Position numbers and translations under genes: made by a program. A stretch of 64,000 bases of DNA from Candidatus Gastranaerophilales bacterium. Its GTDB lineage: Bacteria > Cyanobacteriota > Vampirovibrionia > Gastranaerophilales > Gastranaerophilaceae. Below, in pieces: positions 34,464 through 58,354 of the stretch; positions within the stretch are counted from its first letter, which is position 1, and each line of letters begins with the position of its first letter. The stretch spans positions 1 through 64,000 of the forward strand of contig CALUQH010000032.1 of the NCBI GenBank assembly GCA_944322885.1, in the 5' to 3' direction. The notes beneath the pieces were generated by a model, which did no database searches, was not told where the DNA came from, and saw only the letters and a program-made list of their open reading frames with translations.

Positions 34464-34628
34464 AAAGTATAATGAAGGTTAATAGAAAGGGTTAAAAAGG
34501 AGGCGAAGCCTCTGGCAAAAATATAACAAAGTATAACTAAAATTGACGGAATGGATAAAAAGGAGGCAAAGCCTCTGACGAAAATATCAGAAGTATAACG
34601 AATATTAATAGAAAGGGTAAAAAGAAAA
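34464..34628 (+). repeat. 62-64 bp tandem leader repeat before the second ferredoxin gene
   Basis: Two full units (34464-34527, 34528-34589) and a third partial unit (34590-34628) that runs directly into the ATG. Each unit starts (A/G)AAGTATAA, has an AAAGGG- or GGAT-type purine run, then AAAAAG. In full units this is followed by GGAGGC-G/AAA-GCCTCT, a hairpin that hides a perfect GGAGG, and a GGC/GAC-AAAATAT tail. The third unit replaces the hairpin with AAAAATG. The units are homologous to the 65-bp repeat upstream of lpxA (44716-44862). Confidence 0.85.
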
Positions 34629-34886
34629 ATGAGCGAAAAAGTTAGTGTTAAAGTATGTTTGGGAACAACATGTTTCGTAATGGGGTCGTCTAATTTACAG
34701 GAATTAATCGAAATGGTTCCTAAAAAATACGGTGACAAAGTAGAAGTTGCAGGAGTTCCTTGTTTAGGCTTATGTTCAATTGACTGGGAATTTTCAAAAG
34801 CACCTTATGTAAAAGTTGACGATGAGGTGATTAAAGAAGCAACTGTTGAAAAGGTTTTAAAAGCTATTGATGAAAAATTGAAATAG
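34629..34886 (+). CDS. Thioredoxin-like [2Fe-2S] ferredoxin of the hydrogenase locus
   Basis: An 85-residue thioredoxin-fold ferredoxin with ligands CLGTTC (C-x4-C) and CLGLC (C-x3-C), paralogous to the protein at 31251. The AAAGGG of the last tandem unit lies 11 bases before the ATG, so the repeat supplies its ribosome-binding site. An intrinsic terminator separates it from the group B-like hydrogenase gene at 35021. It may deliver electrons to either hydrogenase. It is likely the end of the purB-ferredoxin-hydS-phosphatase run or a separate unit with the repeat as leader. Confidence 0.87.
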   Translation: MSEKVSVKVCLGTTCFVMGSSNLQELIEMVPKKYGDKVEVAGVPCLGLCSIDWEFSKAPYVKVDDEVIKEATVEKVLKAIDEKLK

Positions 34887-43904: not shown

Positions 43905-44708
43905 CTACGCTTCTAATGATTCATGACCTGACTTATGGGTTTTTAAAAGCACCCCGCGTTTAGACGTCTGGATAAATTCAATCATTTTTTCAATATACTC
44001 ATTCATCGGAATTTCAGCTTTAATTTTTTCGATAGCCTGAGTTGTGTTATATTCATCTGAAATCAAAAGTTTAAATGCTTCATTAGTAGCAGTTCTGATT
44101 TCCTGAGAAACGCCGCGTCTTTTCATAGCAATAACATTCAAGCCGCGCGGAACGGGCGGTCTGCCTTCGCCCTTTGAATACGGCAAAATATCCTGACGGG
44201 AAGCAGAGAAACCGCTTATAATTGCCATATCACCTATTCTTATATTTTGATGGAATACACTCATACCGCCGACAAATGCGCCGAAGCCTACATGAACATG
44301 CCCGCCTAAAGTTACGAGATTTGCTAAGATTACCTCATCTGCAAGAACACAGTTATGAGCGACATGAGAGCCAACCATGAGCAAGCATTTTTTACCTATT
44401 CTTGTTGTAAAATCTCCGCAAGCAGCACCTCTGTGAACAGTTACATTTTCTTTTATAATTGTTCCGTCACCGATAACAACTTTTGTAGGTTCACCCTTGT
44501 AGCCCAAATCCTGAGGTTCGGACCCTATTGTTGCAAATGGAGAAATCGTACAGTCATCCCCGATTTCTGCAAATTCAATATGAGCATTTGAAATTACTCT
44601 TGTTCTGTGCCCTATTGTAACATTTTCACCTATAACAACATATGGTCCTATTATTGCGTCATCTGCGATTTTTGCTGACGGATGAATAATTGCGGTTTTG
44701 TCTATCAT
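43905..44708 (-). CDS. lpxA: UDP-N-acetylglucosamine O-acyltransferase
   Basis: A 267-residue left-handed beta-helix enzyme for the first step of lipid A synthesis (acyl-ACP to UDP-GlcNAc). Hexapeptide repeats run from IHPSAKIADDAIIGPYVVIG to about residue 185. HVAHNCVL holds the catalytic His, and the C-terminal helical domain ends it. The 65-bp tandem leader repeat runs up to the ATG and supplies the AAAGAGGG ribosome-binding site. Unusually, it is separated from fabZ-lpxC-lpxD by a 1.6-kb unknown gene and the repeats; lpxB is not in the window. Confidence 0.96.
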   Translation of the reverse strand: MIDKTAIIHPSAKIADDAIIGPYVVIGENVTIGHRTRVISNAHIEFAEIGDDCTISPFATIGSEPQDLGYKGEPTKVVIGDGTIIKENVTVHRGAACGDFTTRIGKKCLLMVGSHVAHNCVLADEVILANLVTLGGHVHVGFGAFVGGMSVFHQNIRIGDMAIISGFSASRQDILPYSKGEGRPPVPRGLNVIAMKRRGVSQEIRTATNEAFKLLISDEYNTTQAIEKIKAEIPMNEYIEKMIEFIQTSKRGVLLKTHKSGHESLEA

Positions 44709-44715
44709 CTTTTTT

Positions 44716-44862
44716 GCCCTCTTTGTCGATTTTTGTGATACTTATTATTTTTTTGTCAGAGGCTTCGCCTCCGCTTTTTTGCCCTCTTTGTCGATTTTTG
44801 TATTACTTGTTATTATATTGTCAGCGGCTTTGCCTCCGCTTTTTTGCCCTCTTTATCGATTT
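44716..44862 (-). repeat. 65-bp tandem leader repeat upstream of lpxA
   Basis: Units start at 44716, 44781 and 44846, a period of exactly 65. The first two are full; the third keeps only about 17 bases before it diverges. Read on the coding strand, each unit has GGAGGCGAAGCCTC (a hairpin covering a perfect GGAGG), a GAC-AAAA stretch and then CGACAAAGAGGGCAAAAAAG, which in the last unit is the ribosome-binding site of lpxA. The units are homologous to the repeat at 34464-34628. Confidence 0.87.
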
Positions 44863-44977
44863 TGTTGGTTTTTTAGAGTTTTTGCCGGTCGTTCACGGAG
44901 GTTAGCTCCCGTTTTTCCTCTCTTTTACCATTAAATCAATTATAGTACAAATCCGCGTTGGTCACAAAATTTTTATA

Positions 44978-46576
44978 TTATTTTAATATGAAATCATGAT
45001 GAACACTGCTTGCGAGTTCAAAAGCATCATCAAGAGCTTTATTTACTATATTTACAAGTTCTGCGCATCTGCTCTGGGCAGCATAAGCCGCTAAACTTAC
45101 AAAATCCTGCTGTGCTTCTTCTGTGTATTGAACTTTGTAACTTTTTCCGTCTTTTGCAATATTATTTTTAACGGTATATGCTGCAAGGGATAACAGTTCA
45201 TCAAAAGCTTTATTTTTCTTTTGAGGTTTGTAATCTTTCAAAGTCCCGACAATATTCAATACCGCAATCTGGTATGTATCTGCCATTACATTATTTATAC
45301 CGTTAATATCTGTATATTTTGTACATATTTCATTAGCAGTTTCGTCTATTGAACTTTCATGTGTATAGGGATTAAATACAGTATCATTATTTAAAGTTCC
45401 AGGTTTCATTCCTGCTTTTTGTTCAATAAATCTTGTTAGCTGCGTCGGTGTTGATCTTAAGGTGAAAAATGTTTCATTTTCTTCTTTAACTTTTCTCCAC
45501 GCATATTTCATGTTTTTTGAAAAAGCTTTACGTGCCCAATCATTCAAGCCCCAGAATGCCTTCATAGCGTCAGATTGCTCTTTTTTGAGTGTTTCAGGAG
45601 ATAATTCCGGATCAAATACCTCGACTTTACGTCCTTTTAAAAATTTTGACAAAGCACCTTTGATTCTGTCTGAGGGAGGAAGATTCCAGGCTTTCTTTAA
45701 AACACGAGATAATTCATCTGATTTTTCAGGGTTTTGTCTATAAAACTCTTTCTGTCTTTCAGACATTTCATAAATTCTTTCAGGATTTTCCTGATAGTAT
45801 CTTTTTAAAGCCTCTGATATTCTCCGTTTGTGCTCTTCAGAGAGAGGTCCGCGTTTAATATATACGGGTTCACCCTGTTCTAATTGAGCTTTTCTATCCA
45901 AAGAGGCAAGACGTTTTTCTGTCATCTCTTTCATTAAGCGTTCATTATATTCAGGATCAGAAATCTTTAAAATATGGCCGTAATCTCTGCTTGCAGTCGG
46001 AATGTTGAGTTTTTTCATTGTATGGTACAAATCTTGCCCGTCAGCGTATCTTTTAAGGTCGTTTGTTGAAAAACCTTCACCCCAGTATAATTTTATTAAC
46101 TGAACAGTTAAATCTTCATCATTGTCAAAATATTCAAGTTCTCCTTTACGGAATTTATCTATAACTGAACCGGCGCTTGTTTTTACTTCTTTTGAGACAA
46201 TCGCAGCGTTAAACTCCGGAAATCTTTTTTTTATTTCATTTAAACTAAAACATTCTTTCAGACCGGCAAAATATTTTTTGTGAATACCTATCAGAGTTTC
46301 TTTTGCTTTATTACCCTCTTCAAGAACCATTCCAGCCCATTCTCTTATATTCGGCGGGTATATAGAAGAATTTTTTTCAGCAAGTTTGTCAAGCTGTTTA
46401 ACAGTTTGGGTCAAATCAAGGCTGTAACCGCCTGTAAATGCCAAATACTGTGCGGTTGTCGGGAGTTGTGTATTTGTCATTTCAGCTGGCTGTCCTGATT
46501 GAACGGGTTGGGATGTATATTTATAAGTATTTAATTTAGGGGTAATATTATAATTTTGTAAACTATTTATTCTCAT
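44978..46576 (-). CDS. Large unknown protein with NUMOD3-like helical motifs
   Basis: A 532-residue cytoplasmic protein. The N-terminus (MRINSLQNYNITPKLNTYKYTS...) is disordered and leads to LAFTGGYSLDLTQTVKQLDKLAEK. In the middle, GPLSEEHKRRISEALKRYYQENPERIYEMSERQKEFYRQNPEKSDELSRVLKKAW reads as tandem NUMOD3-like DNA-binding helices, found otherwise next to homing-endonuclease domains. No nuclease domain is visible. The C-terminal third is helical. GGAG lies 7 bases before the ATG. It separates fabZ from lpxA. I infer a nucleic-acid-binding role from the helices only. Confidence 0.65.
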   Translation of the reverse strand: MRINSLQNYNITPKLNTYKYTSQPVQSGQPAEMTNTQLPTTAQYLAFTGGYSLDLTQTVKQLDKLAEKNSSIYPPNIREWAGMVLEEGNKAKETLIGIHKKYFAGLKECFSLNEIKKRFPEFNAAIVSKEVKTSAGSVIDKFRKGELEYFDNDEDLTVQLIKLYWGEGFSTNDLKRYADGQDLYHTMKKLNIPTASRDYGHILKISDPEYNERLMKEMTEKRLASLDRKAQLEQGEPVYIKRGPLSEEHKRRISEALKRYYQENPERIYEMSERQKEFYRQNPEKSDELSRVLKKAWNLPPSDRIKGALSKFLKGRKVEVFDPELSPETLKKEQSDAMKAFWGLNDWARKAFSKNMKYAWRKVKEENETFFTLRSTPTQLTRFIEQKAGMKPGTLNNDTVFNPYTHESSIDETANEICTKYTDINGINNVMADTYQIAVLNIVGTLKDYKPQKKNKAFDELLSLAAYTVKNNIAKDGKSYKVQYTEEAQQDFVSLAAYAAQSRCAELVNIVNKALDDAFELASSVHHDFILK

Positions 46577-54233: not shown

Positions 54234-56561
54234 ATGGTTAAAAATTTAACGGATAATGAACAAAATCCACTCCTCACTCTTCACTCTTCACACAAATACG
54301 CATCAGCTCTTGTTAATATTAAAGGTCTCGGGGTTAAGACATTCAGCTATTTAATTCCTGATGATATGAAAGATAAAATTCAAATCGGACAGGCTTTGCT
54401 TGTCCCTTTTGGCAGGCAAGGGCTGATTAATGCTTTTTGTGTCGGGTTTTCCGATTATCTTCCGGGCGATTTCAAGGTAAAAAAAATCAGCAAAATCCTT
54501 GATGAAACCCCGCTTTTTTCAATTGATTATTTAAAACTGCTTGAATGGGTTGCAAACTATTACTGCTGTGATTTGGTTACCGTATTGAATGCTGCAATAC
54601 CTATGAAATTAATTGAAAAAGCATCAAAAACAGAACAGCTTGTAGAGTTTGTAAAATTTGAAGGTGCGACAAAACGTCAGCTTCAAGTTCTTGAATTACT
54701 GCAAAAATCAGGCAAAATGCCTTTAATCTTATTTGAAAAATACGCAAAAACAACACGTGCGACAATAAAAAAACTTGAACAGGCGGGATGTGTAAAGCTT
54801 ATTCAGGAGGAATTGTACAGAAATCCGCTTGATATTTTAAACATAACAGAACGTGAACCTCTTTTTGAATTGTCTGGCGACCAGAAAAAAGTTTATGAAG
54901 GGATAAAAAGTATTATAGAAGATAAGAAGATAGGAAGGTATGAAGGTAAGCTATTATCTGAAAAAAGTTTATCCTCCTATCCTCCGCCCCTCTTATCTTC
55001 CGAGCTGCTCCTTCATGGTGTTACTGCGTCCGGAAAAACTGAAGTATATTTCAAACTTATCGACGATACAATAAAAGCAGGGAAAAATGTTCTGTTTCTT
55101 GCACCGGAAATTGCACTTGCATCACAGTTAACAAAGCGTCTTGCAAAAAAATTCGGCACACAAGATGTCGCAATCTGGCACAGCAGCATATCAGACGGCG
55201 AAAGATACGACGTATGGCAAAAACTTTATAAAGATGAGATAAAAATTCTCGCCGGAGCACGTTCTGCAGTTTTTGCCCCTCTAAAAAATATAGGTTTGAT
55301 AATAATTGATGAAGAGCATGAGAGCGCGTATAAACAGACAACCCCTGCCCCGCGGTATGACGCACGTGTTGTGGCTCGCAAACTTGCAGAATTTCACAAT
55401 TGCCCTTTATTGCTCGGATCAGCAACACCTGATATTTCAACTTATTACCGTGCGGTAAATTCAGGAAATCTCTTTGAACTTAAAAAACGTTACAACGATG
55501 CAAAAGTCCCACCTGTTACGGTTATAAACATGCAGGAACACGGACGTGCTTCATATAGAAATATTATCTCAATACCTTTGCAGACAGAGATTAAAGAAAC
55601 ACTTGCAAAAGGACAGCAGGTAATCCTGCTGATAAACAGACGAGGATTTTCTACATTTACTCAATGTCAGGCGTGCGGACACGTTATTCAATGTCCTAAT
55701 TGCGCAATCCCAATGATATGGCATTCAAAAGATCAAATGCTTAAATGCCACTATTGCAACCATGCGGAATATTTCCCTGATGTTTGTCCGGAATGCGGGT
55801 CAGATGCTTTTAAAAACAGCGGCACAGGAACACAAAAAATTGAACAGTATGTAAAAGAGCTTTTCCCTGAAAACAATGTTGAACGTATTGACAGCGATAT
55901 TCTTGTAAGAAAAGGCGAACACATAAGACTGCTGGAAAAATTTCAGCGTGGCGATATTGATATCTTAGTCGGCACGCAGATGATTGCAAAGGGTTTGGAT
56001 AACCCGAATGTAACACTTGTAGGCGTAATCTCGGCCGATGCTAGTTTTAATCTGCCGGATTTCAGAGCATCCGAACGCGGGTTTCAGCTTCTCACACAGG
56101 TTGCAGGACGCGCGGGACGCGGAGAATTTGCAGGAAAAGTTTTTTTCCAGACGTACAATCCCGATTTCTACGCCCTTGAAAGTGCTAAATCACAAAATTA
56201 CAGTGAATTTTATGAAACAGAAATTACAGCACGCGAGGAATTTGACTACCCGCCGTTCAGCCAGATAATAAGACTTGTATTAAGCTCGGCCAATAATTTC
56301 CGTGCCGAAAAATCCGCGCAGGAAATAGCCTTAAGACTTTGTACAATGATTGAAAAATTCGGAACATCAGAACGTTTGGAGGTTTTAGGCCCGACTCCGT
56401 GTGTAATTGAGAGAATTAACGGCCAATATCGTTTCCAGATTATTATAAAAAACAAACTTGATAAAAAAGGACATCAATTTATATCAAGTTTCCTAAACAA
56501 AATAACTTTGCCAAAAGATATTAAAATGGTTGTTGATGTTGACCCGCTGGATATTCTTTAA
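54234..56561 (+). CDS. priA: Primosomal replication restart helicase PriA
   Basis: A 775-residue helicase that reloads the replisome at stalled forks. 3' DNA-binding domain: YASALVNIKGLGVKTFSYLIPDD. Helicase: GVTASGKTEVYF (Walker A near 262), LAPEIALASQL, IIIDEEHESAYK (DEEH), LLGSATPDI, then eight Zn cysteines (CQACGHVIQCPNC ... CHYCNHAEYFPDVCPECG), GTQMIAKGLDNPNVTLVGVI and QVAGRAGRG. Two stretches look foreign and repeat-encoded: residues about 12-21 (PLLTLHSSHK) before the usual start, and about 229-256 (EDKKIGRYEGKLL...SYPPPLLSSE) just before Walker A, where other PriA proteins are about 20-25 residues shorter. Confidence 0.94.
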   Translation: MVKNLTDNEQNPLLTLHSSHKYASALVNIKGLGVKTFSYLIPDDMKDKIQIGQALLVPFGRQGLINAFCVGFSDYLPGDFKVKKISKILDETPLFSIDYLKLLEWVANYYCCDLVTVLNAAIPMKLIEKASKTEQLVEFVKFEGATKRQLQVLELLQKSGKMPLILFEKYAKTTRATIKKLEQAGCVKLIQEELYRNPLDILNITEREPLFELSGDQKKVYEGIKSIIEDKKIGRYEGKLLSEKSLSSYPPPLLSSELLLHGVTASGKTEVYFKLIDDTIKAGKNVLFLAPEIALASQLTKRLAKKFGTQDVAIWHSSISDGERYDVWQKLYKDEIKILAGARSAVFAPLKNIGLIIIDEEHESAYKQTTPAPRYDARVVARKLAEFHNCPLLLGSATPDISTYYRAVNSGNLFELKKRYNDAKVPPVTVINMQEHGRASYRNIISIPLQTEIKETLAKGQQVILLINRRGFSTFTQCQACGHVIQCPNCAIPMIWHSKDQMLKCHYCNHAEYFPDVCPECGSDAFKNSGTGTQKIEQYVKELFPENNVERIDSDILVRKGEHIRLLEKFQRGDIDILVGTQMIAKGLDNPNVTLVGVISADASFNLPDFRASERGFQLLTQVAGRAGRGEFAGKVFFQTYNPDFYALESAKSQNYSEFYETEITAREEFDYPPFSQIIRLVLSSANNFRAEKSAQEIALRLCTMIEKFGTSERLEVLGPTPCVIERINGQYRFQIIIKNKLDKKGHQFISSFLNKITLPKDIKMVVDVDPLDIL
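54268..54293. repeat. Repeat-derived insertion in the priA N-terminus
   Basis: CACTCCTCACTCTTCACTCTTCACAC, a complement of the GTGAAGAGTGAA repeat found just upstream (53853-53915 and 54178-54210), is read in frame as part of PLLTLHSSHK, ahead of the conserved PriA start region. Confidence 0.7.
54918..55000. repeat. Inverted-repeat insertion in priA before Walker A
   Basis: GAAGATAAGA (54918-54927) and TCTTATCTTC (54991-55000) are exact inverted copies. The sequence between them continues the symmetry imperfectly (AGATAGGAAGG...CCTCCTATCCTCC). The block is read in frame and accounts for the extra residues of this PriA. Confidence 0.7.
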
Positions 56562-56671
56562 CACAAAACGATACAGGAGCAGCCTTTAAAATAAATTGTA
56601 TTATGAAAAATATATTTTTTATTGTAAAATATTTATTGTAAATAGTATTACTCAAGAAAAGGAAGAGAAAT

Positions 56672-58354
56672 ATGGAAAAACTTTCACCATTGCAAATCGA
56701 AAGATTAAAGTATCAGCCGAAACTTCCGTCAAGCCTTGCTAACGGAATTAATAACCTTGAAATGGCTGAAGGTTCCGCAACTCAATCAGTAAGAGATCAG
56801 GAACAAATTCAAAACCTGTTTAAAAACACATACGGCAAACCCGTTGTAACTTTCAAAACATCTTCTTCTTCAAAAGCATCAGAAGTAAGGAATGTGGGCG
56901 TAATTCTGTCAGGCGGTCAGGCTCCCGGCGGACACAACGTAATTGCCGGTTTATATGACGCTTTAAAACAGGCTAACCCTTCAAATAAATTATACGGTTT
57001 CTTAGGCGGTCCGTCAGGTATTATCGACGGCAAATACGTTGAATTTGATGACAAATTTATTGGCGCTTACAGAAATACTGGCGGATTTGATATTATCGGT
57101 TCAGGAAGAACTAAATTAGAAACAGAAGAACAATTCCAAAAATCTCTGGAAGTTTGTAAAAAATTAAACATCTCTGCTGTTGTAATTATCGGCGGTGATG
57201 ATTCAAACACAAACGCAGCACTTTTAGCAGAATGGTTTGTTAAAAATAATACAGGCATTCAGGTAATCGGCTGTCCGAAAACTATTGATGGAGATTTGAA
57301 AAACGACCAGATTGAAATTTCGTTCGGTTTCGATACAGCTACAAAAACTTATGCAGAACTTATCGGAAACATTGAACGTGATGCAAACTCCGCTAAAAAA
57401 TACTGGCACTTTGTAAAAATTATGGGCAGAAGCGCATCTCACGTTGCATTGGAAGCTGCTTTACAGACTCAGCCAAATATTACTTTGATTTCGGAAGAAG
57501 TTGAAGAAAAGAAAATGTCTCTGGAAAGCATCATAAATTACATGTGCGATATTATCGTAAGACGTGCCGATATGGGTAAAAACTTCGGTATTGCCGTAAT
57601 TCCTGAAGGTTTAATTGAGTTCATTCCTGAAATGAAATCAATGATTTCAAACCTCAACGATATTATGGCATCATTAGAAAATGACCCTTCTTTTGTAAAT
57701 GCAACAACAATCCGCGATAAATTTGAAATCGTTGAAAACAGATTGGACCCTGCAAATGCAAAAGTTTACAACTCATTACCTGCTCTAATCAAAGGTCAGT
57801 TATTAGCAGACCGCGATCCGCACGGCAATGTTCAGGTTTCTAAAATCGAAACTGAAAAATTGTTAATCGAAATGATTTCAACAAGATTAGACGAATTAAA
57901 ATCACAGGGCGAATACATTGGTAAATTCAATGCACAGTCACACTTCTTCGGCTATGAAGGAAGATGTGCATTCCCGTCAAACTTTGATGCAGATTACTGC
58001 TATTCATTAGGCTTTAACGCTTTTGCATTAATTAACTTTGGTTTGACAGGTTATTTATCATCAGTAAGAAACTTAACAGCACCTGCATCAGAATGGGTTG
58101 CAGGCGGTGTTCCTCTTACAATGATGATGAATATGGAAAAACGCCACGGTGAAATGAAACCTGTAATTCAAAAAGCTCTTGTCAGACTTGACGGACCTGT
58201 TTTCAAACAGCTTGAACAAAACAGAGAAGACTGGGCTATGAATGACAGATATTTATTCCCGGGTGCAATCCAGTATTTCGGACCATCATGCGTTTGCGAC
58301 GTTACAACATGCACACTTCAATTGGAAAAATCTAAACAACTCGCAAGCGTATAG
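56672..58354 (+). CDS. pfp: Diphosphate-fructose-6-phosphate 1-phosphotransferase
   Basis: A 560-residue PPi-dependent phosphofructokinase of the long clade. Marks: [25 protein letters not shown] at the nucleotide/PPi site, [14 protein letters not shown], and [18 protein letters not shown] near 173, where the second Asp of GGDD excludes ATP and marks PPi use. [11 protein letters not shown] (catalytic TIDGD), [19 protein letters not shown] and [21 protein letters not shown] follow. It makes the committed glycolytic step reversible and saves ATP, typical of fermenting anaerobes. AAAGGAAGAG precedes the ATG; a strong terminator follows. With glk and eno it covers glycolysis in the window. Confidence 0.95.

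Follow-up and report, generated by a model that had tools for sequence, protein, structure and literature searches.

A dispersed hairpin repeat at ribosome-binding sites in a genus of gut Melainabacteria, with a tandem array before lpxA

We analysed a 64,000-nucleotide stretch of Candidatus Gastranaerophilales DNA (contig CALUQH010000032.1, positions 1 to 64,000; hereafter the window), in which a tandem repeat precedes the gene lpxA. This repeat is probably a tandem array belonging to a dispersed hairpin element of the genus that is non-autonomous and would integrate at sequences resembling a Shine-Dalgarno (SD) site, duplicate them and expand in tandem. The element, ~63 bp long, is a previously unlisted family that is patchily distributed in a genus of gut Melainabacteria.

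The first-pass annotation had described a 65-bp tandem array directly before lpxA, and Tandem Repeats Finder recovered it at 44709–44863 (period 65, 2.4 copies, 91% matches). The whole array lies on the minus strand at 44709–44910 and consists of two 65-bp units and an older, diverged third (44840–44910), which has a long-loop hairpin and extends beyond the earlier description. On the coding strand, the hairpin GGAGGCGAAGCCTC comes first, then TGAC, then an AT-rich linker (~30 nt, with ATCGAC at its end), and lastly the purine run AAAGAGGGCAAAAAAG. The proximal unit (44710–44772) carries this hairpin at 44759–44772, followed by the linker and SD run, and scores 85.3 bits (E 6.7e-19) against our model of the unit, while the second (44775–44837) has an imperfect hairpin, GGAGGCAAAGCCGC, at 44824–44837 and scores 72.2 bits, and the long-loop third (GGGAGCTAACCTCCGTGAACGACC...ATCGATAAAGAGGGCAAAAAA) scores 29.9 bits (E about 3e-5 to 3e-4). 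Units 2 and 3 end in copies identical to the SD run AAAGAGGGCAAAAAAG, and the last run (44709–44724), which also flanks unit 1 as its 3' direct repeat, is, as first annotated, the ribosome-binding site of lpxA, standing directly before the ATG at 44708 (lpxA, 43905–44708, minus strand, 267 aa, Hexapep and Acetyltransf_11). The GGAGG within the hairpin lies ~50 nt upstream of this ATG and is not the ribosome-binding site. Further upstream, the minus strand carries a promoter-like, sigma-70-like TTGTGA-17-TATAAT (44967–44939), a consensus match only and not proof, which would place all three units within the transcribed 5' leader of lpxA. The predicted leader is ~80–350 nt long with the array, compared with ~20–30 nt without. 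Between fabZ and lpxA lies an ORF of 532 aa (44978–46576) with no Pfam match and with repeated motifs such as EEHKRRISEALKRYYQENPE / SERQKEFYRQNPE, which we take to resemble NUMOD-type repeats; related ORFs stand before lpxA in many congeners.

The window contains a second array of the same hairpin family, missed in the earlier description, on the plus strand at 34499–34624. Its first unit (34499–34561; 76.3 bits) has the GGAGGCGAAGCCTC hairpin, a linker and an SD-like run, and its second (34562–34624; 76.2 bits) has GAAAGGGTAAAAAG at its end, close before the start codon (ATG) of a gene for an 85-aa thioredoxin-like [2Fe-2S] ferredoxin (34629–34886, plus strand; hereafter the 2Fe-2S gene). 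To the left of the array, the SD run recurs as a 5' flank copy (ATAGAAAGGGTTAAAAA, 34482–34498, plus strand); over the array region as a whole (34464–34624), congeners have 0 to 5 units. With one mismatch allowed, the hairpin motif occurs four times in the window against 0.06 expected. A DNA search of the source genome (G000, 1.86 Mb) placed the unit at three further locations, namely the second array, ispD (one copy) and before flgC. The genome-wide search for the unit that had been proposed at the outset found, besides lpxA, the 2Fe-2S site and 12 others, and the covariance model of the unit gave 21 units at 14 sites, these genome-wide statistics being derived from search matches.

The units are placed with high regularity. 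At 12 of the 14 sites in the source genome, the SD end of the unit abuts a start codon in sense orientation, the other two being an in-frame copy in ispD and one intergenic copy; by a rough binomial estimate, the chance of 12 of 14 sites falling at start codons is ~1e-27. The genes concerned are lpxA, the 2Fe-2S gene, mraY, a nucleotidyltransferase gene, rdgB, panD, pth, secF, flgC, cbiM and two unknown genes, with frr and others also among the unrelated genes preceded by a unit (apart from lpxA, ispD and the 2Fe-2S protein, genes were named by reading their first residues). Because the covariance model itself contains the SD, which could bias this result, we repeated the search with a hairpin-only pattern. 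Across 33 genomes this pattern gave 49 exact matches, whereas its reversed control gave 2. Of the 49, 39 immediately precede start codons, six are in frame in ispD, and four sit at a contig end behind the gene preceding lpxA and are probably also lpxA sites. None of the 49 is an antisense copy. An identical 14-nt hairpin is found at seven unrelated orthologous sites, and always adjoins an SD.

Among relatives, covariance-model matches occur in 29 of 33 congeners, with 1–38 units each; G009 and G010 are rich in units, whereas G028 and G030 have none. Across 241 sampled genomes of the order, matches are confined to the same family, mostly to the genus itself (a Candidatus Gastranaerophilales genus that includes 'Fusobacterium sp. 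CAG:439'), and are sporadic outside it. Rfam 15 covariance models, at default and lenient settings, returned only tRNAs and sub-threshold noise, leaving the hairpin unit without a match, and searches of phages, plasmids and distant sequences by blastn gave no match to the unit either. Two viral-contig matches comprise the hairpin alone, without SD or linker, and look like chance. We found no description of the family in the open-access PMC literature.

Comparison of orthologous genes revealed sites that are filled in some species and empty in others. In ispD, inserts of 63, 126 and 189 bp (one, two or three units), all in frame, are present in G000, G023 and G008, and the site is empty in 27 other species, among them the sister species G021. 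A 63-bp in-frame unit interrupts priA in G021 and G032, the corresponding site in the window (KNKLDKKGHQ, plus strand, approximately 56450–56470) being empty, and a carbonic-anhydrase-like gene has an in-frame unit in G010 and G029 and is empty elsewhere. Such filled and empty sites among close species indicate that units are gained and lost over short evolutionary times. The priA 3' region (window ~56166–56763), when aligned with contig C17 of G021, rises from 85% to 99% identity at the unit site of G021, suggesting a recombination breakpoint.

At lpxA and ispD, direct repeats of 12–17 bp flank the unit, and those at ispD are two copies of ispD's own SD-like GG.AAAGAGGTTATAAA rather than of the lpxA SD. 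In priA and in the carbonic-anhydrase-like gene, no flanking direct repeats can be recognised. The flank similarity at the 2Fe-2S gene runs beyond the SD, over about 33 bp. Taken across sites, this pattern makes duplication of the target at insertion likely, although it is not proven for all sites.

The number of units before lpxA was supposed to vary, and between species it does, from 0 to at least 5. In this comparison, made with one genome per species, G027 has no unit and its sister G004 has one, G000 and G021 have three, and G020 has five; G031 has at least four, its contig ending inside the array. More distant species have a short lpxA leader with an SD and zero units. Several contigs (C47 of G031, C21 of G021, C31 and C37 of G025, and C51 and C54 of G022) end inside or within ~20–100 bp of arrays, as would be expected of arrays that are longer, or that vary within the population.

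This variation agrees with the earlier proposal of a repeat specific to lpxA, whose copy number would tune lipid A synthesis or make it phase-variable, with ribosome sites serving as decoys or standby sites or being masked. Folding predictions also agree with parts of it: in most leaders the hairpin GGAGG should be paired (probability unpaired ≤0.08, except 0.47 in one unit of the source genome), and the internal SD runs are mostly open. The masked GGAGG is, however, not conserved across the family, in which stems vary or are missing altogether, and in the predictions a change in unit number does not systematically mask the true lpxA SD, its unpaired probability being 0.16–0.73 with units and 0.28–0.90 without, ranges that overlap. 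Moreover, the same unit precedes numerous unrelated genes and interrupts ispD, priA and the carbonic-anhydrase-like gene in frame, and is therefore a dispersed element rather than a feature of lpxA. We thus regard tuning or phase variation specific to lipid A as highly improbable.

In the ~48-bp core of the element, a short GC stem-loop, typically CGGAGGC-GAA-GCCTCTG but also present in variant forms, leads into an AT-rich linker. An SD-like run, AAAGAGGGTAAAAA or GGAAAGGGTAAAAA, comes next, which gives a period of 61–66 bp. The hairpin region folds better than shuffled sequences (p about 3e-6). Paired stem variants include GGAGGC/GCCTC, GGAGGT/ACCTC, GGGCAC/GTGCC, GAGCC/GGCTC and GGAA/TTCC, and in a large GGGAGC/GCGACT group, with loops of 3 to about 50 nt, the alignment suggests tandem sheared G.A pairs. 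Since the stem sequence varies while pairing is largely kept, the GGAGG, a match to the anti-SD, is not the conserved feature of the family. A candidate second hairpin just before the SD (mean energy −1.40 versus −0.64 in shuffles, p 0.005) was rejected, as it beat its own shuffles in only 40% of units and column covariation did not show it. In G009, some units have no hairpin. The same species has, 330 bp before lpxA (locus L271), a different tandem array with a 51-bp period, five SD runs and no hairpin (CCTTAGACCAAAATCTAAAAGTTTAACCAAAGTTTACAGAGAGGATAAAAA); at loci L243 (G009, contig C61), L245 and L219, the period is ~90–110 bp, with tens of nucleotides between the stem arms.

These structural features could also be those of a conserved cis-regulatory RNA leader, in which hairpin and SD are bound by an RNA-binding protein, a ribosomal factor or an sRNA, and tandem units strengthen the response. 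Such a leader would account for the exact sense placement before start codons, for a stem kept through several sequence variants, including the possible tandem G.A form, and for the depletion of start trinucleotides within units (129, compared with 230 in mononucleotide shuffles). Yet at any one gene the unit is present patchily, even between close species, and three ORFs contain it in frame. In addition, no common pathway unites the genes behind it, some units lack the hairpin, and Rfam has no match. On balance, a regulatory leader appears unlikely as the explanation of the family.

How the arrays evolved can be read from identities between units. Units of one array share a mean identity of 0.90, units at the same locus in other species 0.85 and units of different loci 0.70–0.72, and for the linker alone the values are 0.88 within arrays, 0.79 between species at one locus and 0.59 between loci. 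Linker and SD are thus locus-specific and the hairpin is common to loci, which is partly a selection effect, as units were picked by their hairpin. This pattern fits an older spread followed by local tandem duplication and homogenisation, and not very recent movement. Leader periods (61–66 bp) are not multiples of 3 in 11 of 22 cases, whereas all measured ORF inserts are, as expected if selection keeps the frame within genes. Locus-specific linkers and SDs in internally homogenised arrays, together with the duplicated leader segments at the 2Fe-2S gene, could also be produced if each leader had simply duplicated itself by slippage and acquired its hairpin by convergence or drift. Local duplication of this kind is nevertheless quite unlikely to be the whole account, given that the 14-nt hairpin is shared by its seven unrelated sites, in each case beside an SD, and that the linker of the ispD inserts is not derived from ispD.

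The dispersed element that we favour would thus integrate at an SD-like purine sequence, and with such a target it would usually land in sense orientation immediately ahead of a start codon. Insertion would leave an SD-like copy of 12–17 bp on each side, as in the clear cases, so that the gene would keep a working ribosome-binding site, and units could then multiply or vanish through recombination or slippage between the direct repeats. From the empty and filled sites we infer movement of the element; its spread would be transposition-like, with SD-like sequence as the target and tandem growth by way of the direct repeats. No mobilising enzyme was identified: the Y1 transposase domain (PF01797) had no match in the source genome and is present in 6 of 33 congeners, and a RAYT/IS200 transposase was rejected as mobiliser, being absent from the source genome. 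A bolder version, in which a mobile element uses the translation start region as its integration site, recognising the SD, restoring the ribosome-binding site by duplication and so entering the leaders of essential genes harmlessly, seems doubtful. Such an element might perhaps enter the SD as a small circle, by site-specific recombination, or use an intermediate made of RNA or single-stranded DNA.

Several known repeat families resemble the element in part. The small dispersed repeats of cyanobacteria, reportedly described by Elhai et al. in 2008, are very small, mobile-looking hairpin repeats; set side by side by description, they share small size and a hairpin with the units and come from a related lineage, and we know of no SD targeting among them. 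A CRISPR array was considered in view of the 65-bp period, palindrome and repeat duplication, and this reading was rejected because the would-be spacers are conserved, the whole 63–65 bp unit, linker included, being conserved within arrays (mean identity 0.90). Nor did the units look like a classical MITE, with no terminal inverted repeats visible in the alignments, a single 5' hairpin and an SD run at the 3' end. Rickettsia palindromic elements are small palindromic repeats of ~150 bp found in frame inside unrelated metabolic genes (PMC10969869); by description, the in-frame units in ispD, priA and the carbonic-anhydrase-like gene, with their empty orthologues, are similar, but the unit here is ~63 bp and has an SD, is arrayed in tandem and is found chiefly at start codons, and the lineage also differs. 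BOX elements of Streptococcus pneumoniae are likewise small and non-autonomous with strong predicted RNA structure, contain boxB in variable tandem number, and have been proposed to affect neighbouring genes (PMC3049150). Small size, predicted RNA structure and variable tandem number are shared with our unit, whereas BOX has separate boxA and boxC ends, carries terminal inverted repeats and has not been reported to be fixed on start codons; our unit lacks such ends and itself terminates in the SD at the start codon. REP sequences and REPINs are short, non-autonomous hairpin repeats dispersed in one lineage (PMC3116915); the same paper also mentions the small dispersed repeats of cyanobacteria. 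REPINs, however, are inverted REP pairs tied to a Y1-type RAYT, while the units here are single or direct repeats in one orientation in a genome without Y1.

The lpxA array may have an effect on lpxA translation, and it also carries a caution: phase variation should not be assumed for every tandem repeat that precedes a surface gene. With 0 to at least 5 units before lpxA, the genus offers natural leader variants for measuring how leader length and standby sites affect translation. If our reading is correct, this would be a selfish repeat that lives inside essential genes in an unusual way, almost only on the ribosome-binding sites of housekeeping genes, leaving the SD intact, growing in tandem and entering ORFs in frame.
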